Assembly (NCBI GenBank): GCA_903930145.1 | Contig: CAIYXP010000046.1 | Location: 1-35,944 of the forward strand | Direction of reading: 5' to 3' | Source: an uncultured Methylococcaceae bacterium | GTDB lineage: Bacteria > Pseudomonadota > Gammaproteobacteria > Methylococcales > Methylococcaceae | Length of the DNA: 35,944 nucleotides | Part shown: positions 2,529-35,613 of the stretch, one piece after another | How the letters are laid out: each line of letters begins with the position of its first letter | How positions within the stretch are numbered: the stretch's first letter is position 1 | Position numbers and translations under genes: made by a program | The notes under the pieces: model-generated | Databases searched by the model: none | Seen by the model: only the letters and a program-made list of their open reading frames with translations | Told to the model about the DNA's origin: nothing

Positions 2529-4613
2529 ATGCTAATCGAACTCGCGCTAGTTGGCGGGGGTGCCGCACTTTGGAGTAAGCTCAAACGCAAGCGGCCCAAT
2601 CTGGCCTATCGACTCTCCAACACACCAAGCCCATCGCCTTTATCCCATTACAAGGATCTAGCTCACGACGTGAAGAATGCCATATGGGGCGATGAGCGGC
2701 AACAGCTCCAAATGACGATTGATCCGGACTTGCGGGCAGAGATTGAACGACGCAATAAGGAAGAGAAACGCAATTTGAGGTTATACGCAGGGGCGACCGG
2801 AATAGCGCTTCTCGGAACGTTATACCCGGCATTTTATTGGCTGGGCAGCGTGGCAGTCATTTACATGACGCGTCCTCTTCTTGGAATCGTCTGGCGGGAT
2901 TTCCAAAAAAAGCACTACTTGAGTGTTCCCATGATTTCGGTCTTTCTCGTGTTCGGCATGATTGCCACAGGAAGGCTCGCGTTGGCGGCCATCGGAGGGC
3001 TGATAGGCGGCTTTCTGGTGATACTGATTCGAAAAGCCGAGGACAGTTCAGAGAAACATTTGATAGACGTGTTCGCGGGACATCCAAGCCGAGTGTGGCT
3101 CGAAAAGGATGGCGTAGAAATTGAGGTACCGTTCGAAACCCTCCAAAAAAACGACCTAGTGGTCGTCAATGCCGGAGAAATTATTCCGGCTGACGGTGTC
3201 ATCAAAACAGGTTCGGCCAGCATCGACCAACATATCCTGACCGGTGAAAGTCAGCCCGTGGACCGGGGCGTTGGAGAAAACGTATTTGCGGCGACGCTGG
3301 TATTGGCGGGTCGCATCACCATTCAGGTCGAAACCGCCGGTGAAAAAACGGTCGCCGCCAAGATCGGACATGTGTTGAACAACACGAAAACCTATAAAGA
3401 CAACCAGATGCTGCGGGGCAAGAAAATCGCCGATCGTCTGCTGCCCGTGGAGCTAGGCATCGCGGCGGTGACTTTGGGAGTATTGGGTCCGGTACCCGCC
3501 TTGGCCATACTCTGGTCGGGTTTGGGTTCGCGCATGATTTTGTATGGCCCGATGAGTGTCCTAAACTATTTGCAAATTCTAGCGAGGCAGGGGGTCTTGA
3601 TCAAGGATGGGCGGGTATTGGAATCTTTGCGCCAAGTGGATACGGTTGTGTTCGATAAGACCGGAACCTTAACGCTGGAGCAGCCGAGTATAGACACCAT
3701 TCACCGATTTGGTGACTACGACGAAAACCAAGTATTACGCTATGCGGCCAGTGCGGAGTTTCGCCAAACCCACCCAGTCGCCAGAGCCATTACCGACGAG
3801 GCGCGGCAACGTGGAATACCGCTGGCCACGCCAGAGGACACCCGTTATGATGTGGGCTACGGCATCAAGGTGTATCTGGAACAAAAACAGGTGCATGTAG
3901 GCAGCAGGCGATTCATGCAACGCGAGGGGCTCGCGATGCCGGAAGGGCTGGATAATTTGCTGGAACGAACCGAAGCGCTGGGATATTCGCTGATCTATGT
4001 AGGGGTTGATGGCGTGGTGGCTGGCATTTTGGAAATGCAGCCCAGCATTCGTCCGGAAGCTCATGAACTGATCGAAAGTCTCCGTAAACGTGGACTGGCG
4101 ACCTATATCATTTCCGGCGACCATGAAGAACCCACTCGCAACATCGCGGAGCGACTTGGTGTCGACCATTATTTCGCGGAAACTCTACCGGAGAATAAGG
4201 CGGAGTTGATTAACCGCTTGCGGCACGAGGGAAGATTCGTCTGCTATGTCGGCGACGGTATCAATGACGCCATCGCATTGAAATCCGCGCAGGTGTCGAT
4301 TTCTTTGAAAGGCGCCTCCAGCGCGGCGACAGATACCGCACAAGTGGTACTCATGGATGGAACCTTGGGTTATCTGAGCAAGCTGTTCCAAATAGCGGAT
4401 GAGTTCGAACATACCATGCGGAATAACCTTCTGCTGAGTATCGCGCCTGGCATCATCAATATTGGAGGCATTTATCTGCTGAACTTCGGCATCGCGGCGA
4501 GTGTGGGCCTGTTCTACGTCGGCAGCACGGCGGGTTTGGCCAATACCGTTCTGCCCTTTGTCAGGCATCGGGAGAACCGGCCGCCACGAATCGAGAATGT
4601 CAACAATCGGTAG
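2529..4613 (+). CDS. P-type ATPase, heavy-metal-like, lacking CPC motif
   Basis: Membrane ATPase of the P1B-like fold, 694 residues, with no N-terminal HMA metal domain. Visible motifs are TGES (about 238), the phosphorylation site DKTGT (about 376), the HP dipeptide 'QTHPVA' (about 415) and GDGIND (about 575). The membrane metal motif CPC, expected 23 residues before 'GVLIK', is replaced by Leu-Gly-Ser (about 332-334), although the following Pro (341) is kept. The transported ion therefore cannot be inferred from the usual P1B rules. The N-terminal 90 residues are soluble and charged, and are shared with the remnant at 1682-1951. A homologous ATPase at 33454 closes the other end of the cluster. 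The start ATG has no clear Shine-Dalgarno. Confidence 0.9.
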   Translation: MLIELALVGGGAALWSKLKRKRPNLAYRLSNTPSPSPLSHYKDLAHDVKNAIWGDERQQLQMTIDPDLRAEIERRNKEEKRNLRLYAGATGIALLGTLYPAFYWLGSVAVIYMTRPLLGIVWRDFQKKHYLSVPMISVFLVFGMIATGRLALAAIGGLIGGFLVILIRKAEDSSEKHLIDVFAGHPSRVWLEKDGVEIEVPFETLQKNDLVVVNAGEIIPADGVIKTGSASIDQHILTGESQPVDRGVGENVFAATLVLAGRITIQVETAGEKTVAAKIGHVLNNTKTYKDNQMLRGKKIADRLLPVELGIAAVTLGVLGPVPALAILWSGLGSRMILYGPMSVLNYLQILARQGVLIKDGRVLESLRQVDTVVFDKTGTLTLEQPSIDTIHRFGDYDENQVLRYAASAEFRQTHPVARAITDEARQRGIPLATPEDTRYDVGYGIKVYLEQKQVHVGSRRFMQREGLAMPEGLDNLLERTEALGYSLIYVGVDGVVAGILEMQPSIRPEAHELIESLRKRGLATYIISGDHEEPTRNIAERLGVDHYFAETLPENKAELINRLRHEGRFVCYVGDGINDAIALKSAQVSISLKGASSAATDTAQVVLMDGTLGYLSKLFQIADEFEHTMRNNLLLSIAPGIINIGGIYLLNFGIAASVGLFYVGSTAGLANTVLPFVRHRENRPPRIENVNNR

Positions 4614-5923: not shown

Positions 5924-5984
5924 TGCCCATTACGGTAGAATAACCAACAGCAACTTTTGTCAGGATGAAATAATTATTATCAAG

Positions 5985-7626: not shown

Positions 7627-7641
7627 GTTACGCTAATATAA

Positions 7642-7670: not shown

Positions 7671-7802
7671 CAGAAAGTTTCGGTCGGGGGCCTATGGATG
7701 CCTCTAAATCGGTGGCTTACACTGGCAATATTACACCTTTTTCGCAGCATTCGGGCTTTTTCGATAGCCCCATAAGCCTGGATACATTCGAGAGGATTTT
7801 CT

Positions 7803-8894: not shown

Positions 8895-9017
8895 GTTAGT
8901 TAAATGTTTGACTATTTCTCATGTGCTAGATCAAGAATCGTTCTTAAATCATGACTTATCTGGATTCAAAGCACAGCCCATTGAATTGAAATCGCCATCT
9001 TCAAAGCAGTATCCAAG

Positions 9018-11954: not shown

Positions 11955-11971
11955 AGCGTCCTCTATCAATA

Positions 11972-12250: not shown

Positions 12251-12252
12251 GG

Positions 12253-13728
12253 TTATATTGTTCGTAATTTATCGGGGTTGCGAATCTTTTTGCCACTGGC
12301 CGTATAGGATAGCTGGCCGACCCACAGGAACCGGCCCGGAATTTTATGGCTGGCCAAATATTGCTTGCAGTAAGTCCTCAATTCGTCCTCACTGGGTTGG
12401 TCCTCGTTTTCTTTAAGCACCAGATGCGACCAGGCGGGTTCGCCCCATGAGGATTTTTCTTTGACACCAAACACCGTGGCACTTTGAATGGCCGGATGTT
12501 TTTCCAGCACAGACTCCACTTCTTCGGGGAAGAACTTCATGCCGCCAACACTGATCATTTCTTTACTGCGACCGACAATGTAAAGGAATCCATCCCCGTC
12601 CACCCGGCCTAGGTCGCCAGTCCTGAACCAACCGTCGTTTTGCTGCAAGAGGGTCTCGCGTGATCGCCAAGGCGAATAATAGGCATCCAGCATCCCCTTG
12701 CCCTTTATGATGATTTCCCCTTGTTGCTGGCCGGGGGGGCAGTCAAGCCGCAGGGCATAGTCAGGCAGTATTCTGCCGACAGAACCCTGCTTGTCCCTCG
12801 ACTGGCTGACATTAATCGCTGGCAAGCCCAATTCGATGATACCGTAAGTCTCATTGAGGACGCGCCCGAACCGCTGGTAAAAATGGGCGGCGGCGTCTTC
12901 GCGCAGGGCGGTGGTGGTCACAATGGCTAGCCGCAATTCGGGGGGCAGGCTGGCATTGCTGTCGTCTTGCGTCATCATCGCATAATGGGTGGGCGAGCCA
13001 TAGATTAGCGTAGCCCGGTGGCGCGACGCAGCCGTGAGCAGGGTAATGCCAAAACCATTTTTGGGCAGGATGATACTGGCGCCAAATGTCAGATAGGCGA
13101 CGATGGAAACCGCAAAATGATAATCCATAGACAGCAGCCACAAGATGCGATCCTTTGCGCCGATCTCCAGAATTTGATTGGCTGCGTGGATGCGTTCGAA
13201 AATGGATTCATGCGATAGCACCACGCCCTTGGCATCGCCGGTGGTGCCGGATGTGAATCGGATGAACGCGGCATTGATGCCAGCCAATTGCGGCGGTGCC
13301 TCGCATTGGGCATTGAGCTTGAGGTAAACGGCTTGCTCCGTGAGAGGAATAGCCTCAGGTGCGGTGGTGGTAGCGCCAACAAGCTGATCTAGGAGCCTGA
13401 CACTGGATATGGCAGCGTCGATATGGATGTACTGAAATATCTGCTGTTTCTCCGTGGCAGTCAACTCAAATGGCAAAGGGGTGACACAGGCACGGCAATT
13501 CCATAGCGCATACACGAAGGCGATATAGTCGCGCCCACTCTGATAATGTAGCCCGATATTGTCGCCCGGATTGACCCCGGCATCTCTAAGTTTCCCACTC
13601 AGGGATTCAACTTTTGCCTGAAATTCCGCATAGCTGGTTTTATCCTCCAGTTCCTGGCCCAGTATCAACGGATGACCGGGTTGTTGCTCCGCTTGTTGAA
13701 AAAAACATTCCGCCAAATTTAGGTTCAT
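12253..13728 (-). CDS. AMP-forming acyl/amino-acid ligase
   Basis: ANL-superfamily adenylating enzyme, 491 residues, which activates a carboxylic acid and probably loads the adjacent carrier protein. Core motifs are 'TSGTTGDAKG' (159-168), 'NETYGIIELG' (A5-like), 'GWFRTGDLG' (A7), 'GRSKEMISVGGMKFFPEEVE' (A8) and the C-terminal catalytic lysine in 'TASGKKIRNP' (A10). The open frame reaches 13944, but the start at ATG 13728 overlaps the preceding gene's stop by ATGA and begins with the family-like 'MNLNLAECFFQQAEQQPGHP'. The specificity pocket cannot be read reliably by eye. Confidence 0.9.
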   Translation of the reverse strand: MNLNLAECFFQQAEQQPGHPLILGQELEDKTSYAEFQAKVESLSGKLRDAGVNPGDNIGLHYQSGRDYIAFVYALWNCRACVTPLPFELTATEKQQIFQYIHIDAAISSVRLLDQLVGATTTAPEAIPLTEQAVYLKLNAQCEAPPQLAGINAAFIRFTSGTTGDAKGVVLSHESIFERIHAANQILEIGAKDRILWLLSMDYHFAVSIVAYLTFGASIILPKNGFGITLLTAASRHRATLIYGSPTHYAMMTQDDSNASLPPELRLAIVTTTALREDAAAHFYQRFGRVLNETYGIIELGLPAINVSQSRDKQGSVGRILPDYALRLDCPPGQQQGEIIIKGKGMLDAYYSPWRSRETLLQQNDGWFRTGDLGRVDGDGFLYIVGRSKEMISVGGMKFFPEEVESVLEKHPAIQSATVFGVKEKSSWGEPAWSHLVLKENEDQPSEDELRTYCKQYLASHKIPGRFLWVGQLSYTASGKKIRNPDKLRTI

Positions 13729-14903
13729 TGCCAATTTCCGCCCAAGTATTTGCCCACGGCTTCGCCCATTGCCCAGCAGGTTCCGACAACGCGAGCGGAT
13801 GCTTGTGCGCGTGGCTCCGCAGACAGGCATTTCCCGGCTGCCCACAGATTGGTGAAGCCCGCGACTTTCAGACTGCGCAGCGGTATGTCGTAAGTGCTGC
13901 CCGCCGGCAGGTATTCCAAATTCAATCCCTTGCCCGGATGCCAATGCTCAATCGGCCAGCAGGCACGGCAAGCCCTGTCCGCAAACTGCTTGCCTGACTT
14001 AACGTCCGCTTCCGTCAGGCAATATTCCCCCTTGATCCGCCCGCCATCACGGATACCCAATCGGCCATATGCGTTGATGAATGCTTTACCAAAAGCGGGC
14101 ATGGTTTGGAGAAAAGCCAGCAGCCGCTCGGCGGCGGATCGCATGGATGCGGTGTCATAATTGTCTGGCGTTACGTTAAATTTGGCGTAAGCCTCGTCAG
14201 GGTAAACGCCAGTATCTACCCACAGGGTCAGGCACTCCGGCGGCAATTGATGGGTCTCTGCCGCCTTGCGTATCTCCATTAACAGGGCAACGCCACTGGG
14301 AAAGCGAAGGGCATCAGTGGCAACGCCACGCAATTGTAGGATGACCCCCCCCAAAGCCACGCCATTTTCCACCCGCTCCGCATCAATCAACCGGACAACA
14401 TTGGCATCACCCGTGGCATCGACCACAGCCGCAGGCTGCACATTGTCGACATTGCCGTTAGAGGAGATAGTGATCTGCGCAATTTGGCCCGCATGGATGG
14501 AAAGCTGAGTGACGCTGGCGTGAAAAACGATGTCAATGTTGGGTTTGCTTGCCACCCAGTGGGTGACGACGTTGGCGTATTTTGCCGGATCGACATCCAG
14601 CACCCAGGTTTTGCCGATACGTCGCTGTTTTGTATAAGAACAGGCTTCGCCCAAGCGTTCGGCAAGTTCAGCCGGTAGGCCGGCATTGAGCAGGCTGCCT
14701 TGGTCGTCAAACAACCCCCCCAACGTGTGGATAAGTGCCTGACTGACCGTGCCGCCAAGTTCGGCTGATTTTTCCAGCAAAACGACGCTGGCCCCTGCTT
14801 CCGCCGCAGACAGGGCGCAACTGATGCCCGCCGCCCCAGCCCCCACGACGACGACGGGTTTTGACGGATCGGAACTTGGCCTGACCGGACGAATACCGTT
14901 CAT
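13725..14903 (-). CDS. FAD-dependent oxidoreductase
   Basis: Flavoprotein of 392 residues. The N-terminal dinucleotide-binding motif is 'VVVVGAGAAGISCALSAAEAG' (GxGxxG at about 21-26) ending in 'VVLLEK'. A second FAD contact, 'AAVVDATGDANVVR', and a C-terminal 'GFTNLWAAGKCLSAEPRAQAS' resemble FAD-dependent oxidoreductases of the fumarate-reductase/thiazole-enzyme superfamily (PF12831-like). The open frame extends to 14978, but the ATG at 14903 is preferred because it overlaps the stop of the GNAT remnant by ATGA. In the operon it likely oxidises the carrier-bound acyl group (inference). Confidence 0.85.
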   Translation of the reverse strand: MNGIRPVRPSSDPSKPVVVVGAGAAGISCALSAAEAGASVVLLEKSAELGGTVSQALIHTLGGLFDDQGSLLNAGLPAELAERLGEACSYTKQRRIGKTWVLDVDPAKYANVVTHWVASKPNIDIVFHASVTQLSIHAGQIAQITISSNGNVDNVQPAAVVDATGDANVVRLIDAERVENGVALGGVILQLRGVATDALRFPSGVALLMEIRKAAETHQLPPECLTLWVDTGVYPDEAYAKFNVTPDNYDTASMRSAAERLLAFLQTMPAFGKAFINAYGRLGIRDGGRIKGEYCLTEADVKSGKQFADRACRACWPIEHWHPGKGLNLEYLPAGSTYDIPLRSLKVAGFTNLWAAGKCLSAEPRAQASARVVGTCWAMGEAVGKYLGGNWQ

Positions 14904-15183
14904 CCGGCTAGCGAAGGAGGATCGATTTGATAGATACAGTAAGGGTATACGGGTTTGAAACCAAAGCGTAAAAGCCAAGGCACTTCGGTGGAATCGGGTT
15001 CAACCCGTTCGATTTCCGATCCCTCGACCCGTTGCAGGGGAAGCGAGGTGTCGCACACCAACGCCCTGACATTGGAACGGGTCGCTCCCCTACTGACATG
15101 CCTGTCCGCAAGATCCAGAGGCTGCGTCCAGGGATAGACGTACCATCGCATGGGACGGCCAAGATTTTGATATGAGAGAATGT
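14900..15183 (-). pseudogene. GNAT acetyltransferase remnant with core deletion
   Basis: The minus-strand frame reads 'WYVYPWTQPLDLADRHVSRG', closely matching 'WCVYPWTQPADLGKRLLARG' of the GNAT at 9018, and continues through 'DTSLPLQRVEGSEIERVEPD'. It then jumps to 'LLRFGFKPVYPYCIYQID', the paralogue's last strand. About 100 codons, including the acetyl-CoA-binding turn, are deleted in frame. The start is also missing: homology begins just after the HDO stop. The stop still overlaps the next gene's ATG, so the scrap may survive as a translational coupler. Confidence 0.85.
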
Positions 15184-15198
15184 CATGACGGCAGCGGG

Positions 15199-15960
15199 TC
15201 AGGCCGTGGCAAAATCTTGGGTTTTGCTGTCCGCCCGAATCTGGTCCAATAGATCGGCCCACCATTGGGTCATGGCCTCAATGGCGAGTTCGGCCCCCGT
15301 GAGCGCCTGTTGGGTGTTAATGGTTGGCCGCTCCCCATCCTTTTCGACCACGGTTTTGTCGAGTGGTAAACCTTGCAGAAATACGCCTAGCTCGTCCCGG
15401 TGGCTTTGCTCGACACCACTCAAGTGCATTTCATGGAACCAAACCAGCTTCTTGCCTTCTTCTTCCAGCTTACGCCTCTTCAGAACTTCGTTGGAAATGT
15501 CCAAAAACACTTCATGTTCGAAGATGGCAGCCGTTTCCGTGGCGAACATCGCACCCAAGACGGTCGAAGGTTCGCGGCCCACTATTTCGCCAATCGTATC
15601 AAGGAAGTGTGTGGTGGAAGGAAATTCCGTCCGGGTATCGATATCGATGCCTATTTTCATTAGCGCCTTCTTGTAAATGGCAGCGTGTCCGTTTTCTTCC
15701 GCGTGGTTACGAATCAGTTCTTGCTTGACGGCATCGGTGTCGAATGAACCCGCCAATTCAGCGGCAGCCGCCAGAAACTTGGTGTTCCGAAAGGAGAACT
15801 GGTAATGTTCCATCATCAGCCATTCCAGTGCTTCCGTGGAATATTGATCCAAGTTTTTGAGTTGCGCCTTCGCATGATTGATGAACGCTTGGTTACGCTG
15901 GTCAATAAATGCGGACACATCCAATTGGGTATTACTATTGTTACTCGTTGTTTCGTGCAT
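15199..15960 (-). CDS. Heme-oxygenase-like diiron oxidase (HDO family)
   Basis: Helical protein of 253 residues with the metal-ligand pattern of the HDO superfamily (UndA, BesC, SznF type): Glu51 in 'MMEHYQFS', His86 and His92 in 'NHAEENGHAAIYKKAL', Glu142 and Glu148-His149 in 'TETAAIFEHEVF', and the His/Asp-rich helix 'WFHEMHLSGVEQSHRDELG' (175-193). Known members cleave C-C bonds, form alkenes or oxidise nitrogen. The ATG at 15960 is chosen over 15972 because AGGA lies eight bases upstream. It is the first gene of the coupled operon; a possible promoter lies at 16107-16135. Confidence 0.8.
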   Translation of the reverse strand: MHETTSNNSNTQLDVSAFIDQRNQAFINHAKAQLKNLDQYSTEALEWLMMEHYQFSFRNTKFLAAAAELAGSFDTDAVKQELIRNHAEENGHAAIYKKALMKIGIDIDTRTEFPSTTHFLDTIGEIVGREPSTVLGAMFATETAAIFEHEVFLDISNEVLKRRKLEEEGKKLVWFHEMHLSGVEQSHRDELGVFLQGLPLDKTVVEKDGERPTINTQQALTGAELAIEAMTQWWADLLDQIRADSKTQDFATA

Positions 15961-16106
15961 GTTTATCCTCATTAGGTAAAAAAGAGCTATATGAAGCGGT
16001 AAGAGTTCACTCTCTTGGGCTTATATGTTTGCAAGTATGCTTAGCGTAACTATAACGGTCAGTCCGCATTTGCCTTGGTGCGTCGCCCGCCAAATTATCA
16101 GATGGC

Positions 16107-24308: not shown

Positions 24309-24482
24309 ATGATAAACCAATATGTGATCATACTAATCTATGTTGCGCTGTGCGTGGCGGTTGGATTTCTGGGCAGAAATCGGAAATGGGGCTTCTGGGG
24401 CTACCTCTGGTCGTCCATACTGTTTTCCCCGCTGCTGGGCATCCTTTTTCTGCTGGCGTCCGATCCTAAAAAAACCACATAA
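24309..24482 (+). CDS. Small two-helix membrane protein
   Basis: A 57-residue frame starts eight bases after the lipoprotein stop. It reads 'MINQYVIILIYVALCVAVGF', a short charged turn 'GRNRKWGFWGY', then 'LWSSILFSPLLGILFLLAS' and a lysine-rich end. Two hydrophobic helices with a positive inner loop give a convincing small membrane protein. The downstream gene starts 22 bases after its stop. Function unknown; it is likely a small subunit of the surrounding membrane module. Confidence 0.65.
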   Translation: MINQYVIILIYVALCVAVGFLGRNRKWGFWGYLWSSILFSPLLGILFLLASDPKKTT

Positions 24483-24504
24483 ACCCGCCGTCGGAGTATT
24501 TCGA

Positions 24505-26478
24505 ATGGAAAACCTGAAACGTTCACGGGCTGGCGGTTTCAGCTTAATGTCAAAATCGCGCAAGCTTGCGGTCAGTTTGCAGGGTGGGCTGTGGTTTGCC
24601 CTTTGTGTCCTGCTGGCCCTATCCACCCCCCCCGCTTACTCAGCCGCCCCGGCAACCGCAAAGCCTCCGGCGCAGCCGGCTACCGCGCCTGCCGTCCCGG
24701 CAGCGGGGTCCGCCGCGCCTGCAACCACCCAACCGTCAACGCCTGTAAGCGGCGCGGCGGCAACTGTTCAAGTCAGCGCGCAAGGCAAGAAATTACTTGC
24801 CCTCATCGAACCCATCCAGCGGGAAATTCAGGGGAAATTCGATGATTTGAATGCAAGGATTGCCGCCATGGAGGTCGATGCCAAAGTCACCAGCCTGCGC
24901 GATAGCATCTCCGGCTTGAGTGACAGCATGAAGGACAGCTTCAGCGGAGTCGATGGAAAAATCTCTGAATTGCGCGACAACTTGAACAAATTGGGCCAAG
25001 ACACCCGGGGCAACACCAAATCGATTGAGGAACTGAAGGCCAAACTGGAAGAGACGGCGATTAGGGTATACGAACACCTTTTGAAGGGCATGGAAAGATC
25101 GGCACAACTTGACAAACTCACCACTAGGCTGGACGAGTTGGAAGCCTTGTTATCGTCAAGGAGGCCCCCGCCCAAGGCAGTAGAATCGGCGGGCAAGTCC
25201 AACGATGCTAAAGCCAAACAGACCGACGACGCCAAAGCATCGGGCGAGAACAAACCCGAGGCGGAAGACTCGCCCAAACCGGCGAGCGCAGCCCCTGTGT
25301 TGCGATTGCCCCAGCAGGATTTTGCCCCTGTCGGTTTGCTGATTGCCACCCTGCTTTCGTATGTCGCCGCAGTTGGCTTTAGTCTGCTGGAAAGTGCACG
25401 CCTGGAGCGTTGGGCGGTGGCCCCGGCCGGCCTCAGGAACTTACTGGTCTGCACGGTGACTTTTCTCGCTTACTTCAGCGTCGGCTACTGGGTCATGTAC
25501 GGTGAATTCGCCGCCACCGCCACGACGGCGTATCAAGACAACGGCTGGCGGGAAATGTTTCCGCTCTTTCAGGTCGGCCTAGCCATGGTTGTTGGAATCG
25601 CCGTCGCCACGGTGTTGTCGGATCGGCTGTCGATGGGTGCCTACCTTTATCTGGCGGCAATCTTGGCGTTCTTGGTTTATCCTTTGTTCGGTCATTGGGC
25701 ATGGGCCAGTCGCGGGTTGGTCCTTGGCAAAGGCTGGCTGGAATCGCTCGGGTTCGCGGATTTCGCCGGCGCGACCGTGGTTCACTCGGTGGCGGCTTGG
25801 TTCGCGTTGGCATGGGCTTTGCGCTTCCCGGTAACGCATGAGGACGACGGGGCGGTAGACGAAAAGGATGGGGTTTCCCCCGCTGGCAACCCGGTTCATG
25901 CTAGCCTGGCGGTCTTTGTACTCTGGCTGGCGTGGTTTGGCTTGGTCACCGGTCAGCAAGAAGACGACACGAGGCAAACCGTGGCATTGATCGTCAACAC
26001 AAGCCTAGCCATGGCGGCGGCAGTATTGATGGCCTTTGTCCAAGAATTACGCTCCAAACGGGATGATACGGGCGAAGGGCTTAGTCACCGGCTTGCCTAT
26101 GGCGCTGTCAGTGGGCTGGTGGCTGTCTCGGCGGCGGCGAATGGCGTCACCGCCTTGGAAGCCGTGGTGATTGGGTTGGTGGCTGGCTTGCTACAGCCGT
26201 TCGCCTCCAAGTGGCTGGTCAACCGAGTCGTCAAACATGACCGGCAAGCCGCAGGCTTGATCGCCGTGCTCGGTTTTAGCGGCATATGGGGTTCCCTGTG
26301 CGTGGGGTTGCTCGGCACGGAGGGGAATTTTGCCCTGCCCAACGTGGCCCAGACCGGAATCCAAGCACTTGGCGTGGTAGCGGCTTTCGCCTTCTCCTTG
26401 ACATCGGGCTTGGCGGCAGCTTACGCTTGGCAATGGCTGTCCAAACTGCGGAAAGTAAAATCAGAGCAGCCGGGCTGA
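24505..26478 (+). CDS. Amt-like membrane protein with coiled-coil N-terminal extension
   Basis: From ATG 24505 (GGAG nine bases upstream) the product is 657 residues. It has a signal-like helix, a Pro/Ala-rich stretch, and a coiled-coil region of about 110 residues ('EELKAKLEETAIRVYEHLLKG'). After a low-complexity linker comes an ammonium-transporter-like membrane domain of about 10-11 helices. Amt landmarks are 'YPLFGHWAWASRGLVL', 'LGFADFAGATVVHSVAAW' and 'NTSLAMAAAVL'. The first of the twin pore histidines is kept (VVH), but the second, in the family's 'HGVGG', is replaced (VLGFSGIWG, Leu). The open frame extends back to 24340 but overlaps the 57-residue gene. Confidence 0.8.
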   Translation: MENLKRSRAGGFSLMSKSRKLAVSLQGGLWFALCVLLALSTPPAYSAAPATAKPPAQPATAPAVPAAGSAAPATTQPSTPVSGAAATVQVSAQGKKLLALIEPIQREIQGKFDDLNARIAAMEVDAKVTSLRDSISGLSDSMKDSFSGVDGKISELRDNLNKLGQDTRGNTKSIEELKAKLEETAIRVYEHLLKGMERSAQLDKLTTRLDELEALLSSRRPPPKAVESAGKSNDAKAKQTDDAKASGENKPEAEDSPKPASAAPVLRLPQQDFAPVGLLIATLLSYVAAVGFSLLESARLERWAVAPAGLRNLLVCTVTFLAYFSVGYWVMYGEFAATATTAYQDNGWREMFPLFQVGLAMVVGIAVATVLSDRLSMGAYLYLAAILAFLVYPLFGHWAWASRGLVLGKGWLESLGFADFAGATVVHSVAAWFALAWALRFPVTHEDDGAVDEKDGVSPAGNPVHASLAVFVLWLAWFGLVTGQQEDDTRQTVALIVNTSLAMAAAVLMAFVQELRSKRDDTGEGLSHRLAYGAVSGLVAVSAAANGVTALEAVVIGLVAGLLQPFASKWLVNRVVKHDRQAAGLIAVLGFSGIWGSLCVGLLGTEGNFALPNVAQTGIQALGVVAAFAFSLTSGLAAAYAWQWLSKLRKVKSEQPG

Positions 26479-26540: not shown

Positions 26541-26588
26541 CCCTATGGCAATATCCCACGATAACCCTATGGCAATATCCCACGATAA
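26541..26588 (+). repeat. 24-bp tandem duplication over a start codon
   Basis: Two exact adjacent copies of a 24-base unit (26541-26564 and 26565-26588) each contain an in-frame ATG (26545, 26569), so the product can begin MAISHDNP-MAISHDN. Neither ATG has a clear Shine-Dalgarno. Confidence 0.9.
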
Positions 26589-27600
26589 CAAGGAAGAACC
26601 GCCATGTGACAGGTTCAGCTATCGTTTCATCAATCTCACCATCGGGAATGCGCCTGACGCGTTTGCCAATGATATTGCCTGCGGTTTGGCAGCCCCACAA
26701 AAATACATCCGCTCGATGCACATGTACGATGCAGACGGTTCTGAATTGTTCGAGCGGATCACCCAAGACCAAGACTACTATCCGACCCATGCGGAAACCG
26801 AAATACTGGCCCGGTTTGCGCCGGAGATAGCGGCTGGTCTGGCTGAAAACACCGCCCTAGTCGAACTGGGGAGCGGCAGTGCCAAGAAAACCCGGTTGTT
26901 GTTGCAAGCCCTGTTGGACAAACAAAATCATGCGCTATTTTGCCCGATTGACATTTCTGGAGACTTCTTGCGGGAAAGTGTCAGGTGTATAAGTAGGGAT
27001 TTTCCAAACCTCGAGATTCTCGGCATCGTCGCTGATTACTACACCGGATTGTCTGTACTGGCAAATGAAATACATCAGCCCATACTCATGTTATGGCTAG
27101 GCACGGACATTGGACACGCAGACCGTAACGCGGCGGCCGGGTTGCTTCGTGATAAAATGATCCCGGCATTGAAGCCGGGTGACAGATTACTGGTAGGCAT
27201 CGACCTCAAGAAGGCCGCCGAGCCGATTCACCGGGCCTACGGCTGCCCCGGTGACAAGGAACCGTTGCGCTACGCATTCAATTGCAATGCCTTGCTCCGC
27301 ATCAACCGTGAGCTGGGCGGAAACTTCATCACCGAAAAATTCCAACGCTATTGTTTTTACAACGAGGCGTTAGGGCGGATTGAAACCTACTTGAAAAGCC
27401 TGTGCGACCAGCAAGTGACGGTTGCCGCATTAGGCCAGACGTTCGATTTCAAAGGGGGGGAGCTTATTCATCTCCATTTTGCCTACAAATATGACCAAGA
27501 CGATATATTACAGTTGAGCAAGGCCGCAGGTTTACAGCTAGAACAGCAGTGGTTCGATGAAAAGGCTTGGTACAGCCTGAATCTTTTCGTCGTGGGATAA
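26545..27600 (+). CDS. EgtD-family SAM methyltransferase, first copy
   Basis: Methyltransferase of the histidine-specific EgtD family (PF10017 type), 351 residues from the first ATG or 343 from the second (26569). Family features are 'PQKYIRSMHMYDADGSELFERIT', SAM motif 'LVELGSGSAKKTRLLLQAL', 'CPIDISGDFLRES', and 'FNCNALLRINREL'. Three positions that bind substrate in mycobacterial EgtD differ: the 'GSTIGN' Asn is His (GTDIGH), and the 'TEVS' Glu and Ser are His and Ala (HLHFA). Histidine is therefore unlikely as substrate. It is closely similar to the second copy at 28928; a sulfotransferase lies between them. No EgtB-like gene is present. Confidence 0.85.
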   Translation: MAISHDNPMAISHDNKEEPPCDRFSYRFINLTIGNAPDAFANDIACGLAAPQKYIRSMHMYDADGSELFERITQDQDYYPTHAETEILARFAPEIAAGLAENTALVELGSGSAKKTRLLLQALLDKQNHALFCPIDISGDFLRESVRCISRDFPNLEILGIVADYYTGLSVLANEIHQPILMLWLGTDIGHADRNAAAGLLRDKMIPALKPGDRLLVGIDLKKAAEPIHRAYGCPGDKEPLRYAFNCNALLRINRELGGNFITEKFQRYCFYNEALGRIETYLKSLCDQQVTVAALGQTFDFKGGELIHLHFAYKYDQDDILQLSKAAGLQLEQQWFDEKAWYSLNLFVVG

Positions 27601-27636
27601 GCTGAAGATCAATCTCATGCCCATTTTTTACCAAGG

Positions 27637-28869
27637 ATGCCCAGACAATACCGATGGTCTGAGGTTTTTATATTTAAAACCATAATGCTTTTAATTTTGC
27701 TCATTATCGTCTATTTTTTGGGGTTCAAGCTATCGCCGTTTCCCTATTGGAGGACCTACCTTATTCTTTGGAAACACGTTTTGCTTGACCGTGACGCCTC
27801 TATGAATGTGGGGTACAGAATGAGGCAGGCTTGGTTTCTAATGAAATATGCGTTGCTGACCCCCTTGTGGACTGCGCTTTGGTGGCTGGATGAGTGGCTA
27901 TTTCCCGCTTACAAGCACTGCACGGTTCGCCCGGTGTTTATCTTGGGGCAGCCGAGGAGCGGCACGACCTTGCTGCATCGGACATTGGCAGCCGACGAAA
28001 CAACTTTCGTCGCCGCCCGGCATATTGAGTGGCGTTTCCCCTATATTGTTTTGCAAAAGCTCATCAAAGCATTTGGGCTATCGGAAAGGCTAAAGGCCAT
28101 GGACTATTGGCCCCGCACCGAAGCGGGGAAACAGGCATCGCTCATGCACCCTAACACCTTGTATGACTGGGAGGAGGATGGAATCTTTTACGAGGAATGT
28201 TTTCTGCATCATTTTTTCATTTTCTTGAGGTTTCCATACCCTAATCTGCTGCCCTATCTTGACGATTTTCCGGGGCTGCCTGAACGTGTTCAGGGGCAAA
28301 TGATCGACATTCATCATAAGGTCTTGCAGAAGATTCTGTACTTGAATGGACGTGCGGGGTTGCACTATTTGTCCAAAGAAGTCACGAGCCATAATAAGTT
28401 CATGCGTCTGATGCAACTTTACCCCCACGCAAAGTTTATCGTCGTTGCCCGCCATTCCGCCGATTTTATGGGTTCGCTGTCTGCCTTGGTTCGGGCATCG
28501 ACCCATGCCAAAACCGGCATTGATCCGTTATTGATACCGGGATGGGAAGCTGCATTCATTCAGCGAATGAAGCAAGACAGTCTGCTTTTAGTCGATTTAT
28601 GCAATAACATTATCGACCCCAAAAACCAGATTCAGTTGAGTTTTACAGGATTCATAACCGATATTGAAAAGACGGTTAGTTATTTGTATAACGAATTGGG
28701 CATTACCCTCACCGAAAGTCATATTAAATCCCTTAAAGCCTTGATAGTAAAGCAGAAGAATCGAACTATGGGTTATACCTATGACATCCATGCGGTGGAA
28801 GGCTTTGAGAATTTCGATAATTTTGTTAATAATGTGGATGTTCAGTTTAACAAGGCTATTCTGATATAA
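27637..28869 (+). CDS. Membrane-anchored sulfotransferase-like protein
   Basis: Protein of 410 residues. Near the N-terminus is one membrane helix ('FIFKTIMLLILLIIVYFLGF', about 11-30) and a second hydrophobic stretch (about 70-90). The phosphosulfate loop is 'LGQPRSGTTLLHR' (103-115) and the second PAPS contact is 'AKFIVVARHSADFMGSLSALV', typical of Sulfotransfer_3 (PF13469). It sits between the two EgtD-like genes, 36 bases after the first. An N-methylated, sulfated product would fit this trio (inference). The start ATG has an 'AAGGATG' overlap region as its Shine-Dalgarno. Confidence 0.8.
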   Translation: MPRQYRWSEVFIFKTIMLLILLIIVYFLGFKLSPFPYWRTYLILWKHVLLDRDASMNVGYRMRQAWFLMKYALLTPLWTALWWLDEWLFPAYKHCTVRPVFILGQPRSGTTLLHRTLAADETTFVAARHIEWRFPYIVLQKLIKAFGLSERLKAMDYWPRTEAGKQASLMHPNTLYDWEEDGIFYEECFLHHFFIFLRFPYPNLLPYLDDFPGLPERVQGQMIDIHHKVLQKILYLNGRAGLHYLSKEVTSHNKFMRLMQLYPHAKFIVVARHSADFMGSLSALVRASTHAKTGIDPLLIPGWEAAFIQRMKQDSLLLVDLCNNIIDPKNQIQLSFTGFITDIEKTVSYLYNELGITLTESHIKSLKALIVKQKNRTMGYTYDIHAVEGFENFDNFVNNVDVQFNKAILI

Positions 28870-28927
28870 TCTAGTGACAGTGCCATGAAATTATTTCACT
28901 TTAATAAATAATTTACCTAATAGTATA

Positions 28928-29956
28928 ATGCCACATCACCAAGCCAAGATACAATCCTCTTTTGGCGGGACAGCCTACCGCTTCATCGACATCGCTTCCC
29001 AAGGTTCGGTAGACACTTATGCCGACGACATTGCCCGTGGTTTGGCCGCCCCGCAGAAATACATCCGTTCAAAGCATATTTATGATGAAGACGGTTCCAA
29101 ATTGTTTGAGCAGATCACGCAAGATAAAAACTACTACCCGGCTCAGGCGGAAACAGAAATCTTGACTCGGTTTGCGCCAGAAATGATGGACGGTCTGGCT
29201 GAAAATACGGCCTTAATCGAATTGGGCAGCGGCAGCGCCAAAAAAACCCGGCTGCTGTTGCAAGCTTTGCTGGGTCGGCAAGGGCGTTCGTTATATTGCC
29301 CTATCGACATTTCCGGGGATTACTTGCGGGAAAACGTCAAACGCTTGAGCGAAGACTATCCAGAACTCGACATCCTAGGCGTCATCGCCGATTATTACGC
29401 TGGGCTGGCTGTGCTGGCAAATGAAATACGCCAACCTAAGCTCCTGTTATGGATGGGGACGGACATCGGACACTTGGATCGTAAGCAAGCGGCGGAACTG
29501 TTGCGGGGGAAAATGATTACGGCCTTGGAGCCCGGCGACAAGTTATTGATAGGCATCGATTTAAGAAAAGCCGCAGAACCCATCCGTCTGGCCTACGGCT
29601 GCCCCGGCGACAAAGAGCCTTTGCGCTATGCGTTCAACTGCAACGCCCTGCGACGCATCAACCGGCAGTTGGGTGGCACCTTCGCGACGGAAAACTTCCA
29701 GCGCCACTGTTTTTACAACGAGACCTTGGGGCGAGTGGAGATTTATTTAAAAAGCCTTTGCGACCAGAGTGTCGCCATCGGAGCGCTGGCGCGGACATTC
29801 GACTTTAAGGCGGGCGAACTCGTTCATATTCACTATGCCTACAAATATGACCAAGACGAGATTGTTCAATTGGGTGAGGCTGCGGGTTTGAGGCTGGAGC
29901 GGCAATGGTTCGATGAGAAGACGTGGTATAGCCTCAATCTCTTTATGGTGAAATAA
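28928..29956 (+). CDS. EgtD-family SAM methyltransferase, second copy
   Basis: A 342-residue paralogue of the protein at 26545, aligning end to end without large gaps; by eye well over half the residues are identical. It keeps the SAM motif 'LIELGSGSAKKTRLLLQALL' and 'FNCNALRRINRQL', and shows the same three changes in the substrate pocket (GTDIGH; HIHYA). The shared changes mean both copies descend from an already re-specialised enzyme. Two copies may methylate successive positions or two related substrates. The next gene begins seven bases after its stop. Confidence 0.85.
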   Translation: MPHHQAKIQSSFGGTAYRFIDIASQGSVDTYADDIARGLAAPQKYIRSKHIYDEDGSKLFEQITQDKNYYPAQAETEILTRFAPEMMDGLAENTALIELGSGSAKKTRLLLQALLGRQGRSLYCPIDISGDYLRENVKRLSEDYPELDILGVIADYYAGLAVLANEIRQPKLLLWMGTDIGHLDRKQAAELLRGKMITALEPGDKLLIGIDLRKAAEPIRLAYGCPGDKEPLRYAFNCNALRRINRQLGGTFATENFQRHCFYNETLGRVEIYLKSLCDQSVAIGALARTFDFKAGELVHIHYAYKYDQDEIVQLGEAAGLRLERQWFDEKTWYSLNLFMVK

Positions 29957-29962
29957 GCTTTG

Positions 29963-31267
29963 ATGAACCCCAAAATTGTTCGGGCGTTTCCCTGCCACAT
30001 AGACAGGCCCCCAACCATAGAGCCCATCGCAATCTTGCATTGGCTTCGGGAAAAGCAACTATTGAGCTTGCCTTATTATCTTCACGCCTTTGAAGGCTGC
30101 ACCGAGATTGGTTGGGGGGCCAAGGAGCACGTTGCATTCTTGGACGGTGACGCTGCCGAGGCCGATGACTGGGCATCCACGATCAAACGAATCGGAGACC
30201 ACGCAGCCACAGTCAATAGCAAAGCTTTTGGTTATCTCGGATTTGACGCTTGGGATAGTTTACAAGGGCTTGCCCCTGATAAAAGCGCCACTTTTCCGCT
30301 AGGGCAGTTTTTTATTCCCGAACATAGGCTCTCCATCCGGGGAGGGCACATTGAGTATTTTGGCGATGATTGCAGTATATTGGAATGTGTGCGACAAACC
30401 CCGTGTTTCACATCTCCCCCTGCACCGGCAGAGTCTTGCCCTGATGTTGAGTGTTCGGAACAAGACTTCATGCAAGCGGTGGAAAGGGCAAAACAATCCC
30501 TGCCGGGAAAAATCACCAAGGCGGTTTTATCGCGGTATCAAGGCTTTGATTACGATGCCGACTTGCTTGAACTGTTTGCCAGGTATTGTTTGCGCCAACA
30601 ATGCACCGATGCCATCTTGATGGATTTTGGCAGTGTTGGCGCGGTCATCGCCACTCCCGAACTCATGCTGAACACCAATGCTGGCAAGATCACCGCCAGT
30701 CCGCTGGCAGGCACCAATAGTTGCAGCCCCAACGCCGAAGCTAACCTAATGAGAAGGCAGAGTCTACTGAACGATCGCAAGGAACTGGCTGAACATACGC
30801 TTGCCTTGCTGCAAATGCTGGACGAACTCCGGCCTTACTGTGAGCAGGGAACGCTGGTCGTGAGCCGATTGTTGGATATTGTCCAGCAAAACAACGTGAT
30901 GCACCTGAGTTCAGAGTTAAGCGGGCAACTCGGCGCGGACAAGCATTGCATTGATGCGATGCTGTCGCTGTTTCCAAGCACCATGGTCAGCGGTGTGCCC
31001 AAGGCGGAGTCCATCCGGTTAATCCGCCGTCTCGAAGGCTTTCCCCGGGGTTTGTTTGGCGGCACGGTTGGTTGGGTTTCCGGCCATGACTGCCGGTTTG
31101 CGCTGACGATTCGCGGGATCTACAAGTACGGGGCGCGCCTGTTTGTCCAAGCGGGCGCAGGAATCTTAGAGGAATCCGACCCACTGAGAGAAAATGCCGA
31201 AGTCAATCTGAAAATGAGCGCGATGCTGGATGCCTTGTCCGGCAGCCGCAGCAGCCGATTGGGCTAG
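29963..31267 (+). CDS. Chorismate-utilising enzyme, isochorismate/salicylate synthase-like
   Basis: Chorismate-binding fold (PF00425), 434 residues. The order of motifs is 'KITKAVLSRYQGF' (about 184-196), 'ASPLAGTN', 'DRKELAEHTLALL', 'VMHLSSELSGQL', 'LFPSTMVSGVPKAESIRLIRRLE', 'PRGLFGGTVGW' and 'AGAGILEESDPLREN'. The Lys in 'TKAVLSR' is the water-activating lysine position of isochorismate and salicylate synthases; anthranilate synthases lack it. PLAGT instead of PIKGT argues against aminodeoxychorismate synthase. The exact product is not settled, and no isochorismatase is nearby. ATG 29963 is preferred over the adjacent TTG at 29960. Confidence 0.85.
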   Translation: MNPKIVRAFPCHIDRPPTIEPIAILHWLREKQLLSLPYYLHAFEGCTEIGWGAKEHVAFLDGDAAEADDWASTIKRIGDHAATVNSKAFGYLGFDAWDSLQGLAPDKSATFPLGQFFIPEHRLSIRGGHIEYFGDDCSILECVRQTPCFTSPPAPAESCPDVECSEQDFMQAVERAKQSLPGKITKAVLSRYQGFDYDADLLELFARYCLRQQCTDAILMDFGSVGAVIATPELMLNTNAGKITASPLAGTNSCSPNAEANLMRRQSLLNDRKELAEHTLALLQMLDELRPYCEQGTLVVSRLLDIVQQNNVMHLSSELSGQLGADKHCIDAMLSLFPSTMVSGVPKAESIRLIRRLEGFPRGLFGGTVGWVSGHDCRFALTIRGIYKYGARLFVQAGAGILEESDPLRENAEVNLKMSAMLDALSGSRSSRLG

Positions 31268-31277
31268 GTCGGCCAGG

Positions 31278-32060
31278 ATGCCAGTCTCTAAACGGATCGC
31301 CGTCATTTCCGGGGCCGCGCACGGAATAGGCAAGGCGATAGCGCTGATACTGGCAAACCAGGCTCAATCGCTCATCCTGCTGGATAAAGACGAGCAGGGC
31401 CTTGAAAAATTGCAAAGACAAATTAACGTACAAAGCGGGAAAACATATCCTTGTCATGTTGACGCCTATGCGCTGGATGTGACCGATGAAGAACAGGTCG
31501 AAAACCGGTTCGCCTTGCTTGAAGCCAGCCACGATCATGTCGATATCCTCATTAATGCAGTCGGGGGCAGCTCATCGTCCGGCAATGCCGGGGCTGGCAT
31601 TGAGGACATGGACATGCGGCAATGGCAATCGCTGATTGCGCTCAATCTGAACTCTGTTTTTTTGTGTTGCCGCGCAGCCGTGCCGCTGATGAAAAAAAAT
31701 GCTTACGGTAGGATCGTCAATTTTTCATCGATTGCAAGCCACGGGCGGCGGGACAAAGTTTCAATTGCCTACGCCGCATCCAAGGCTGGTGTGGAGGGGT
31801 TGACCCGAAAACTGGCGCGGGAATTGGCACCGTTTGGCATTACCTGCAACGCCATCGCCCCCGGCATCACCCTGACCGAACGGATCGACGAACAATTTTG
31901 GCAGGTCAGGTCGGTCGATCAGCGGCAAGCCGTGCTGGATTCGATACCGCTGGGGCGGCTTTCCACCCCGGAAGAACAGGCCGAGGTGGCGGTTTTTTTA
32001 GCCTCCGAGTCGTCCGGCTATATGACCGGCCAAATTATCGAGGTGAGCGGTGGTATCTGA
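31278..32060 (+). CDS. Short-chain dehydrogenase/reductase (SDR)
   Basis: NAD(P)-dependent oxidoreductase, 260 residues. The cofactor motif is 'SGAAHGIGKA', with catalytic Ser in 'NFSSIAS' and Tyr-x-x-x-Lys in 'YAASK', plus 'ELAPFGITCNAIAPGI' and 'YMTGQIIEVSGGI' as in classical SDRs. The ATG at 31278 has 'GGCCAGG' immediately before it; the open frame extends back to 31230 but overlaps the previous gene. It follows the chorismate enzyme by ten bases. A dihydro-hydroxybenzoate oxidation (EntA-like) would be one possibility, but sequence alone does not fix the substrate. Confidence 0.9.
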   Translation: MPVSKRIAVISGAAHGIGKAIALILANQAQSLILLDKDEQGLEKLQRQINVQSGKTYPCHVDAYALDVTDEEQVENRFALLEASHDHVDILINAVGGSSSSGNAGAGIEDMDMRQWQSLIALNLNSVFLCCRAAVPLMKKNAYGRIVNFSSIASHGRRDKVSIAYAASKAGVEGLTRKLARELAPFGITCNAIAPGITLTERIDEQFWQVRSVDQRQAVLDSIPLGRLSTPEEQAEVAVFLASESSGYMTGQIIEVSGGI

Positions 32061-33066
32061 ACGCGATAGCCTGACCGTCGCCGTCATCGGCAGCGGCACG
32101 ATGGGCGCGGCATTATCCCATACGATTGCAACAGCAGGCCATGCCTGTACCCTACTGACCTGGGACGACTGGGTGATGGAGTCGATCAATGCCACACATC
32201 GGCATCCCCTCTTTTTCGGCGGCTTGAGCCTTCACCCGCAGGTGCGGTCTTCAACCCGTTTCGATGCACATGTTTCGGGGGCGGACCTGATCCTGATGGC
32301 CGTGCCATCCCATGCCATGCGAGGGGTGGCGCGAAGTGTCAGCCATTTGACCCATGCAAGGCAATCCGTCTTGTCCGTCACCAAAGGCTTTGAGCCAACG
32401 ACCCATGACCTAATGTCCCAAGTCCTCGCCGAAGAACTGGACACCGAACACATCGGGACGCTTTCAGGGCCAAATATCACCCTTGATCTCGTCAAGAATC
32501 TGCCCACGGCACTGGTGATTGCGTCTAACTCGCCCCAGATGAGGCAGCATGGGAAACGGGCGCTTGCCACGCCTACCGTCAAGATCAACTTGTCGGATGA
32601 CATCCTGTCTTACGAATACGCCAGCGCACTGAAAAACATTGTCGCCCTTGAAATTGGCATCGTCACCGGGTTGGGGCTGGGAGACAATTTCAGGGGGTTA
32701 GTGCTGGCGGAAGGCATGGCCGAAATCGTCTGCCTGATGACAAGAATGGGACTGCAATCCGATGTTTTTTATGGCCTAGCCGGTTTGTCGGACATATTCC
32801 TGACCTGTTCCAGCCACTTCGCCCGCAATTACACCATCGGCGTCCGCTTGGGAGAAGGTTCTTGCCTGCCTGAATTATTGGACGAGCTTGAAGCCTCCGG
32901 CGAGACCGCAGAGGGTGTCGAGTCCTTGCTGGTTGGTAAATTGCTGACTCAACAACACCGTAGCCAATCGCCTTTGTTGGATGCCACCCATGCATTGGTT
33001 TACGGCGAGTCAAACCTTGGGGCAGAAGCCTTTCTGTCGGCAATGCAAATGGGTTCGGGCAACTGA
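32050..33066 (+). CDS. Glycerol-3-phosphate dehydrogenase-like (GpsA family)
   Basis: NAD(P)-dependent dehydrogenase of the GpsA family, 338 residues. It shows the Rossmann motif 'VIGSGTMGAALS', 'SVTKGFEP', 'LSGPNI', the catalytic-lysine helix 'EYASALKNIVALEIGIVTGLGLGDN', and 'GLAGLSDIFLTCSSHFARN'. It starts at GTG 32050, overlapping the SDR by 11 bases, with GAGGTGA as Shine-Dalgarno. A second GpsA inside a biosynthetic run is unusual; it may reduce or oxidise a phosphorylated C3-type unit for the product, rather than serve lipid synthesis. The divergent N-terminal glycine motif (GSGTMG, usually GAGxWG) supports specialisation. Confidence 0.85.
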   Translation: MVSERDSLTVAVIGSGTMGAALSHTIATAGHACTLLTWDDWVMESINATHRHPLFFGGLSLHPQVRSSTRFDAHVSGADLILMAVPSHAMRGVARSVSHLTHARQSVLSVTKGFEPTTHDLMSQVLAEELDTEHIGTLSGPNITLDLVKNLPTALVIASNSPQMRQHGKRALATPTVKINLSDDILSYEYASALKNIVALEIGIVTGLGLGDNFRGLVLAEGMAEIVCLMTRMGLQSDVFYGLAGLSDIFLTCSSHFARNYTIGVRLGEGSCLPELLDELEASGETAEGVESLLVGKLLTQQHRSQSPLLDATHALVYGESNLGAEAFLSAMQMGSGN

Positions 33067-33453: not shown

Positions 33454-35613
33454 ATGCTCCATCTAATCCCCTTTGTTCTCGGCGGTACAACAATCGTTAG
33501 TGTGTTTTGTCTAAGCAAAAGCCCTAAATCACTGCTAAATCAATTGGCCGATGATAATGAAAAGCTTGACAATAACCCTCAGACTCAGGGAAAAAGCCCT
33601 CTAAAACAGCGAAGTTTAGATTTGTTATTATCTGTAGAAACCGCTTACCAGGGTAAAATCCAAAAATACATTGACCCATTGCTTGGGCAATCTCGCCATC
33701 AACATTTGCAAGAGTTTTCGTCCACTGAACTCCGTCAGCTTAGTAAGCAAGAGCGTGTCGCTAATTTGCAACTGGGCATTGGGGGTGGAGCTTTGGCTTC
33801 AGCCTTAATCAGCAGATTTGTTTACGCCCCCTTTATTGGAGTAACGATGCTGTTTGGAATGAGTGATCTTTTCAGTTTTTACTATACAGGCTATTTAGAA
33901 TGGAAACGCACCCGCAGACTGGGCTCTATTCACTTAGCCTGTATTTATGATGGTTTTATGTGGCTTGGTGGCTTCGCCATGATTGGTTCCCTTGGTCTGT
34001 TCCTCTTTGGAATCGGTTTAAAAATTAAAGCCATTACCGAAGCCCGCGCACATAAACATTTAAACGATATTTTCCAATTGCAACCTGACACGGTATGGGT
34101 GCGTGTTGACGGTGTAGAGCTAGAAATTCCCTTTGAAAAGCTGTCAATTGGCGACACTCTCGTGCTTCACAGCGGACAAGTTGTGCCTGTGGATGGCAAA
34201 GTCATCAGAGGCGCAGCGATGGTGGATCGGCACGTTCTCACTGGTGAAGCCCAGCCAGTTGAAACAACGGTAGATGATCAAATATTTGCCTCAACACTCG
34301 TCATCTCCGGCAGCATTGACGTGCAGGTTGAGCAAACAGGGACGGAAACCACCGCTGGACGTTTAGGTGCAATTCTCGAAGAAAACTCTAAATACGAAGT
34401 ATCGACCACGTTAAAAGTTATTGAAGCCAGTGACCGTTACGCTTGGCCAACATTGGCTTTAAGTGCCCTCAGCCTACCCTTTATCGGATCTGCCAGAGCT
34501 ATTAGCATAATGGGCGCAAACTTCAGCTATTCCATCGCTATCACGGGTTCTGTGGCGATGTTGAACTACCTCAACGCGGCATCTGAAAATGCGGTGTTGA
34601 TCAAAGATTTCAAAGCACTGGAAAATCTCAACGACATCGACCTGATTATTTTTGACAAAACAGGGACTCTGACGGTAGAGCAGCCCAAAGTTGAGCGCGT
34701 GTATCAGTTTGACAACTACAGCGAGGCACAGGTGTTGGCTTTCGCAGCCGCCGCTGAAGCGCGGCAAAATCATCCCATTGCCAGTGCCATATTGGCGGCT
34801 GCAAAAGCGGCGGAGTTAGCCATTCCCGCGATTGAAGACACCCATTATGCTCTAGGTTTTGGTTTAAAAGTAAAACTGACCGAAGAAAATAAAACACTGT
34901 GGGTGGGCAGTGCGCGTTTTCTTGAACAGGAAAACATCGAATTGCCAGCACAGTTTGCGCACTCAAGCCAAGCTTGCTACGCCGAAGGGCATTCTTTAGT
35001 CATGGTGGCACTAGATAACCGCTGTATTGGTGGTATCGAATTGCGCCCCAGTATTCGTCCTGAGACCCATCAAATCATCCAGCGATTGAAGCAACAAAAT
35101 CTGCAACTGTGCATTATTTCTGGCGACCAGACTGCACCGACGCGCAAATTGGCTGAAGAACTGGGCATTGATCGTTATTTCGCTAATGTTCTGCCAGATG
35201 GCAAAGCCGAATTGGTTGAACGCTTCCAACAAGAAGGTCACCAGGTCTGCTTTATTGGTGATGGTATTAACGATGCCATCGCCATGCGCAAAGCCAAAGT
35301 CTCTATTTCCTTGCGCGGTGCCACCGCCGTCGCCACTGATACCGCGCAAATTATTTTAATGGGCGGTAGTCTCAATAAACTACCAGAACTCTTTGGGCTT
35401 GCGCAAAAATTCGAGCGTCGACTGGTGCAGAACTTATACTTTACCTCAGGTGTCAGCATCCTGGCCTTAGCGGGTATTTTTCTCGGCGGCTTTAGTTTTG
35501 TGGTAACAGAAAGTCTAGGTTTTGTCTCTATAATAGGCGCACTCGCTATCGCAATGAAGCCTGTTCAACATGCCTTAACTGATGATAAAGAACTCAAAGA
35601 ACTGGATAAGTAA
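33454..35613 (+). CDS. P-type ATPase, heavy-metal-like, lacking CPC motif (second)
   Basis: Protein of 719 residues, homologous to the ATPase at 2529 but clearly divergent and more AT-rich. Motifs are TGEA (263-266, TGES in most relatives), DKTGT (401-405), the HP dipeptide 'QNHPIA' and 'GDGINDAIAM'. The membrane CPC, aligned from 'AVLIK', is replaced by Phe-Ser-Tyr (about 357-359). It has a long soluble N-terminus (about 105 residues) and no HMA metal domain. Both ATPases share the 'GYS/GHSL...V.LD' type C-half and 'E(M/L)(Q/R)PSIRPE(A/T)H', so they form one subfamily. The ligand is unknown. Confidence 0.9.
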   Translation: MLHLIPFVLGGTTIVSVFCLSKSPKSLLNQLADDNEKLDNNPQTQGKSPLKQRSLDLLLSVETAYQGKIQKYIDPLLGQSRHQHLQEFSSTELRQLSKQERVANLQLGIGGGALASALISRFVYAPFIGVTMLFGMSDLFSFYYTGYLEWKRTRRLGSIHLACIYDGFMWLGGFAMIGSLGLFLFGIGLKIKAITEARAHKHLNDIFQLQPDTVWVRVDGVELEIPFEKLSIGDTLVLHSGQVVPVDGKVIRGAAMVDRHVLTGEAQPVETTVDDQIFASTLVISGSIDVQVEQTGTETTAGRLGAILEENSKYEVSTTLKVIEASDRYAWPTLALSALSLPFIGSARAISIMGANFSYSIAITGSVAMLNYLNAASENAVLIKDFKALENLNDIDLIIFDKTGTLTVEQPKVERVYQFDNYSEAQVLAFAAAAEARQNHPIASAILAAAKAAELAIPAIEDTHYALGFGLKVKLTEENKTLWVGSARFLEQENIELPAQFAHSSQACYAEGHSLVMVALDNRCIGGIELRPSIRPETHQIIQRLKQQNLQLCIISGDQTAPTRKLAEELGIDRYFANVLPDGKAELVERFQQEGHQVCFIGDGINDAIAMRKAKVSISLRGATAVATDTAQIILMGGSLNKLPELFGLAQKFERRLVQNLYFTSGVSILALAGIFLGGFSFVVTESLGFVSIIGALAIAMKPVQHALTDDKELKELDK

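Follow-up and report, generated by a model that had tools for sequence, protein, structure and literature searches.

An EgtD-derived methyltransferase clade with a rewritten substrate pocket in an uncultured Methylococcaceae bacterium

Fungal methyltransferases of the PF10017 superfamily, such as EasF, whose substrate is an ergot alkaloid intermediate, serve specialised metabolism rather than ergothioneine. The specificity of EgtD itself can reportedly be shifted: in the work of Vit et al. from 2015, a change at E282 reportedly helped to move the enzyme toward tryptophan, and the tryptophan-type variant is reportedly a two-site switch, M252V/E282A, in which N166 is kept. In EgtD of M. tuberculosis, Y206, S284, and Y56 bind the carboxylate of histidine and N166 binds its alpha-amino group, the imidazole is reached via a water placed by T213, and E282 is located in the histidine site (PMC8593015). 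Both N166 and G161 have been described as critical for successive methylation, and EanA is an EgtD homolog of anaerobic ergothioneine synthesis with a different partner context (PMC9103826).

The window, i.e., the whole stretch of 35,944 nucleotides analysed here, comes from contig C46 of a Methylococcaceae assembly (G000); the sister records are uncultured Methylococcaceae MAGs. Two EgtD-like reading frames had been proposed for positions 26545-29956 and both are present (MT1 and MT2, Table 1). They are 71% identical in protein sequence, and the orthologs of MT2 in G048, G049, and G047 are 96, 90, and 88% identical to it, respectively. In profile searches both were members of PF10017 (290-291 bits against a cut-off of 23), and both aligned over the full length with EgtD of M. 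smegmatis (4pim; E 1.8e-42 and 2.9e-46). With EgtD (4pim and its complexes) they share the PF10017 fold, the SAM motif ELGSG, D113, Y39, F47, and the carboxylate-binding Y56 and Y206. However, their scores for the egtD equivalog TIGR03438 (278.3 and 278.6) were under the cut-off of 290.9, and they also scored 169-180 bits against the EasF/fungal type TIGR03439, under its cut-off of 205.6, although the superfamily is the same. Unlike EanA, a hercynine-forming enzyme with a rhodanese partner, MT1 and MT2 have no rhodanese pairing. The same interval also holds a sulfotransferase gene that was absent from the original prediction.

Table 1. Features of the window around the two methyltransferase genes and at the far end of the cluster
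Feature	Coordinates	Strand	Evidence
Second P-type ATPase without CPC motif, far end of cluster	2529..4613	+	
AmtB-like protein, 67 bp upstream of MT1	24340..26478	+	PF00909
MT1, EgtD-family (PF10017) methyltransferase of the D163/H166/H282 clade	26545..27600	+	PF10017 290.5 bits
Sulfotransferase (PF13469) with hydrophobic N-terminus, between MT1 and MT2	27637..28869	+	PF13469 65.4 bits; same position in G047, G048, G049
MT2, second methyltransferase, same D163/H166/H282 clade as MT1	28928..29956	+	
Chorismate-utilising enzyme, nearest salicylate synthase Irp9	29960..31267	+	PF00425 190.5 bits; Irp9 2fn0 E 3.8e-41
SDR-family dehydrogenase (start may be 31278)	31230..32060	+	PF13561 198 bits; order conserved in sister genomes and G063
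GpsA-like NAD(P)-dependent dehydrogenase	32050..33066	+	PF01210/PF07479; 1evy E 2.9e-36
P-type ATPase without CPC motif	33454..35613	+	TIGR01525 388.7 bits, cut-off 346.25

An EgtB partner had been said to be missing, and this holds for the window, where none was found among the proteins scanned, though a canonical EgtB-EgtD pair exists elsewhere in the same genome (G000:C152). Since that ordinary pair is present separately, MT1 and MT2 are not the ergothioneine enzymes of the genome. No EgtB over the family cut-off was found in G047, G048, or G049, which carry the pair of methyltransferases.

Residue numbers are those of native EgtD, set on the 4pim sequence in the multiple alignment (the 4pim construct has 2 extra N-terminal residues), and Y39, F47, Y56, N166, Y206, M252, E282, and S284 all fell on the expected letters. 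The alignment confirmed N166H, E282H, and S284A in both copies, as originally predicted; the motifs are GTDIGH where EgtD has GSTIGN, and LHFA or IHYA where EgtD has TEVS. The reading of these sites as substrate contacts was also right, N166 and S284 as contacts and E282 in the histidine site being supported by PMC8593015. However, the change is larger than had been stated: both copies further carry T163D, T213R, F159W, and A241C, and M252 is replaced by T in MT1 and by I in MT2. The clade to which they belong (see below) differs from EgtD by T163D, N166H, T213R/S/H, M252I/T, E282H, F159W, A241C, and often S284A, with S284 lost in its Methylococcales members. N166, T213, and E282 were invariant (39/39) in ordinary EgtD-family members from five phyla, a sample of Gammaproteobacteria that plasmid records and the mycobacterial structure extended to Bacillota, Alpha- and Betaproteobacteria, Actinomycetota, Cyanobacteriota, and Bacteroidota. 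D163, H166, H282, and W159 were likewise invariant in all 14 clade members covering these sites, and C241 in 13 of the 14; the replacements are therefore not due to chance. Positions 252 and 282 are reportedly the sites of the EgtD tryptophan switch M252V/E282A. Against the definition of that variant (non-acidic 282, aliphatic 252, N166 kept), positions 252 and 282 fit and N166 does not. A structure prediction made with nine sequences gave a mean pLDDT of 44.6 and was not used, so that side-chain geometry was deduced from the sequence alignment with EgtD; from the hairpin register, residue 241 is predicted to lie cross-strand from 252 in the pocket wall.

Both copies occur in four genomes of the window genus, and one copy in G063, which belongs to another family of Methylococcales. 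The further members are from a Beggiatoa MAG (L007), from G549 of another gammaproteobacterial order, and from G1083, G1072, and G1107 of the Beggiatoa order; in G1107 the gene is interrupted by a stop. The clade received support of 100/99 and its stem is long (1.21 changes per site); the tree was made before the last three members were known. One further member emerged when 369 genomes of the class and 398 of the phylum were searched, and 43 genomes of the Beggiatoa order yielded three more; a scan of viral_contigs revealed no further relatives. A 41% match in G044 was rejected as a clade member, as it carries N166 and E282 and adjoins EgtB. Between sister genomes, dN/dS was 0.11-0.24 for MT1 and 0.14-0.28 for MT2, i.e., both are under purifying selection, and the divergence of the two copies is old (dS >1.5). 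It had been argued that a new substrate class was likely since both copies share the changes. Sharing by both copies is weak evidence alone, because they are paralogs. The part of the argument that stands is that the acceptor is likely not histidine, since six further lineages show the pocket changes too; a new class is possible but does not follow, Y56 and Y206 being kept. No description of such EgtD paralogs was found among the open-access papers searched.

The genes from MT1 to the GpsA-like gene lie on a single strand, with gaps of about 37, 59, and 4 bases followed by overlaps; the GpsA-like gene, which overlaps the end of the SDR gene by 11 bases, is the probable end of the operon. The order is maintained in G047, G048, and, to the contig limit, G049. 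In G063 it runs from one methyltransferase through a P-type ATPase, the chorismate enzyme, and the SDR gene to the GpsA-like gene. For the sulfotransferase, dN/dS against G048 was unusable, as the stretch taken has an in-frame stop near its start. Among the 281 Methylococcales genomes searched, the chorismate enzyme occurred in exactly the five that carry the methyltransferase, which represent two genera and not five independent cases. Its best match is the salicylate synthase Irp9 of the Irp9/MbtI type (2fn0), and the Lys of the K(A/V)(V/I)xSR motif is kept (KAVLSR aligned with KVIVSR of Irp9). However, its score for TIGR03494 (salicyl_syn), 200.5 bits, was below the cut-off of 325.15, and LAGTNSC stands where Irp9 has LAGTRDR. 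In Beggiatoa and G549, the neighbours of the methyltransferase gene include no biosynthetic genes like those of the methanotrophs, and the pathway role may therefore be specific to methanotrophs. The gene of G1072 is flanked by a flavin monooxygenase and a PF00891 O-methyltransferase.

Outside the window genus, the methyltransferase is coupled with P-type ATPases. The stop codon of the methyltransferase overlaps the start of the ATPase in G063 (TGATG) and G1083 (TAATG), the ATPase of G549 begins a few bases after the methyltransferase gene, and in the Beggiatoa MAG it lies upstream with one small gene between. In the tree, a separate clade (support 100/100) unites the ATPases of G063, G549, and Beggiatoa, so the pair seems to have travelled together. 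At the CPC site these linked ATPases have NSGFGS or NSGLGS; CPC is also absent from many Methylococcales ATPases. The 19 kb read near the methyltransferase of G1072 revealed no such ATPase.

Based on these results, MT1 and MT2 probably represent a distinct clade of EgtD-derived, SAM-dependent small-molecule methyltransferases of specialised metabolism with an acceptor other than histidine; histidine is likely not their main substrate. They are a variant of a known enzyme family and not a new kind of system. The kept SAM site together with Y56 and Y206 would suit a carboxylate-bearing acceptor, and because these two tyrosines are kept an amino-acid-like acceptor stays the default. The residues that serve the amino group of histidine (N166) and its imidazole side (T213 water, E282, and M252) have given way to a fixed set of Asp163, His166, and His282, with Trp159 and Cys241. 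His166, beside the nucleophile, may act as a general base, perhaps tuned or oriented by Asp163, and His282 and the altered side chain at 252 may re-shape the side-chain pocket; a His in place of Asn166 could still bind the alpha-amine. The enzymes would most likely methylate an acceptor that resembles an amino acid but is not histidine, in this genome possibly within a pathway from chorismate that includes sulfation. A more specific form of this explanation, with ordinary EgtD chemistry, is an aromatic amino-acid betaine synthase that di- or trimethylates the alpha-nitrogen of tryptophan, tyrosine, or a chorismate-derived amino acid. Ile or Thr at 252 and His at 282 (the reported switch positions), the kept Y56 and Y206, and the chorismate-utilising enzyme in the operon would agree with it. 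However, N166, which serves amine placement and repeated methylation and which the tryptophan variant reportedly retains, is lost here, S284 is also lost in the Methylococcales members, and the operon has no aminotransferase or aromatic amino-acid gene, so this form is possible but rather unlikely.

Three other readings are less probable still. D163, H166, and H282, with C241, could bind a metal that positions or activates the acceptor, as might be expected from the constancy of the Asp-His-His set (14/14) and Cys241 (13/14), from residue 241 being predicted opposite 252 in the pocket wall, and from the P-type ATPase translationally coupled in several lineages; however, the coupled ATPases have no CPC metal-binding motif and no PF10017 enzyme is known to require a metal, and a metal-dependent enzyme is therefore improbable. 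An extension of it, to which we give slightly less credence again, would be a hitherto undescribed, metal-dependent EgtD branch (Asp-His-His, Cys241) with a non-histidine, perhaps non-amine acceptor, in which the CPC-less ATPase, co-translated in several lineages, moves the methylated product or its metal complex across the membrane. Could MT1 and MT2 be ordinary histidine methyltransferases after all, which supply a second product that is ergothioneine-like or derived from hercynine? The fold family and the full-length alignment with EgtD would allow it, but all three positions that are invariant in the 39 relatives are altered, the scores lie under the egtD cut-off, and the window has no EgtB while a separate EgtB-EgtD pair is present in the genome; we consider this very unlikely. 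Loss of the amine-binding Asn could also be expected in catalytically dead or regulatory paralogs, which are the least probable of all given the conserved SAM motifs and D113, the strong purifying selection on both genes, and pocket replacements that are fixed and not random. A SAM-dependent methyltransferase that would be active on an acceptor other than histidine thus remains the preferred reading.

Genes of this clade could easily be mis-annotated as egtD and counted as ergothioneine capacity, against which the rewritten pocket argues. The clade offers a clean natural series from which to learn how amino-acid betaine synthases become re-targeted, and it marks an unrecognised metabolite cluster of methanotrophs. 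In the other lineages, the coupling of the methyltransferase to a P-type ATPase without the metal motif raises the question of the cargo of that ATPase.

Upstream of MT1, the AmtB-like gene is conserved as a neighbour in G047-G049, no match to it was found in the G063 contig, and it is probably an unrelated upstream unit. Its AmtB-like domain (24340-26478) follows a long N-terminal region, Band-7 and periplasmic-binding-type genes precede it, and the order is conserved in the three sister genomes. Farther upstream, an APS kinase, an AMP ligase, an acyl-carrier-like protein, an FAD oxidoreductase, a haem-oxygenase-like protein, and a cyclic-peptide-type ABC exporter are also kept in G047, which suggests a larger specialised-metabolite cluster. 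On the minus strand, positions 10767-15972 encode a 400-aa protein, the acyl-carrier-like protein, the AMP ligase, the FAD oxidoreductase, and the haem-oxygenase-like protein, a unit mostly conserved in G047. At 5033-9812, a protein that weakly matches cupin/dioxygenase families stands in a row with an AlaX-type editing domain, a second sulfotransferase, an SbnA-like PLP enzyme, and a GNAT protein; these genes are possibly another part of the cluster. The ATPase at 2529..4613 is at most tentatively tied to the methyltransferases.

A 170-residue domain (L007 7430-7942 and L103 8304-8816; 71% identical) lies directly upstream of the methyltransferase in the Beggiatoa MAG, and in G1107 the two are fused; searches for a family or PDB match to the 170-aa protein gave none that was convincing. 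In G549, the ATPase gene that comes after the methyltransferase overlaps at its end with the gene of a DddP-like M24 protein (L035 6675-8045), which scored 450.8 bits and thus under the DMSP-lyase cut-off of 600. The ATPase at 33454-35613 of the window resembles P1B heavy-metal ATPases in its TIGR01525 score and its phosphorylation motif DKTGT (DKTGTLT), but has GANFS at the place expected for the CPC-type metal motif of the transmembrane helix. Its membership in the operon is doubtful: the gap before it is 388 bp, it falls into another ATPase subclade, and in G050 its ortholog adjoins pmo-type genes with no methyltransferase. That ortholog (L107, G050:C261, 7419-9581) is 93% identical and is flanked by a Rieske-type oxygenase and carbamoyltransferase-like pair and by genes resembling pmoCAB, named by sequence reading; the same place seems to be occupied by different metabolite genes across genomes.
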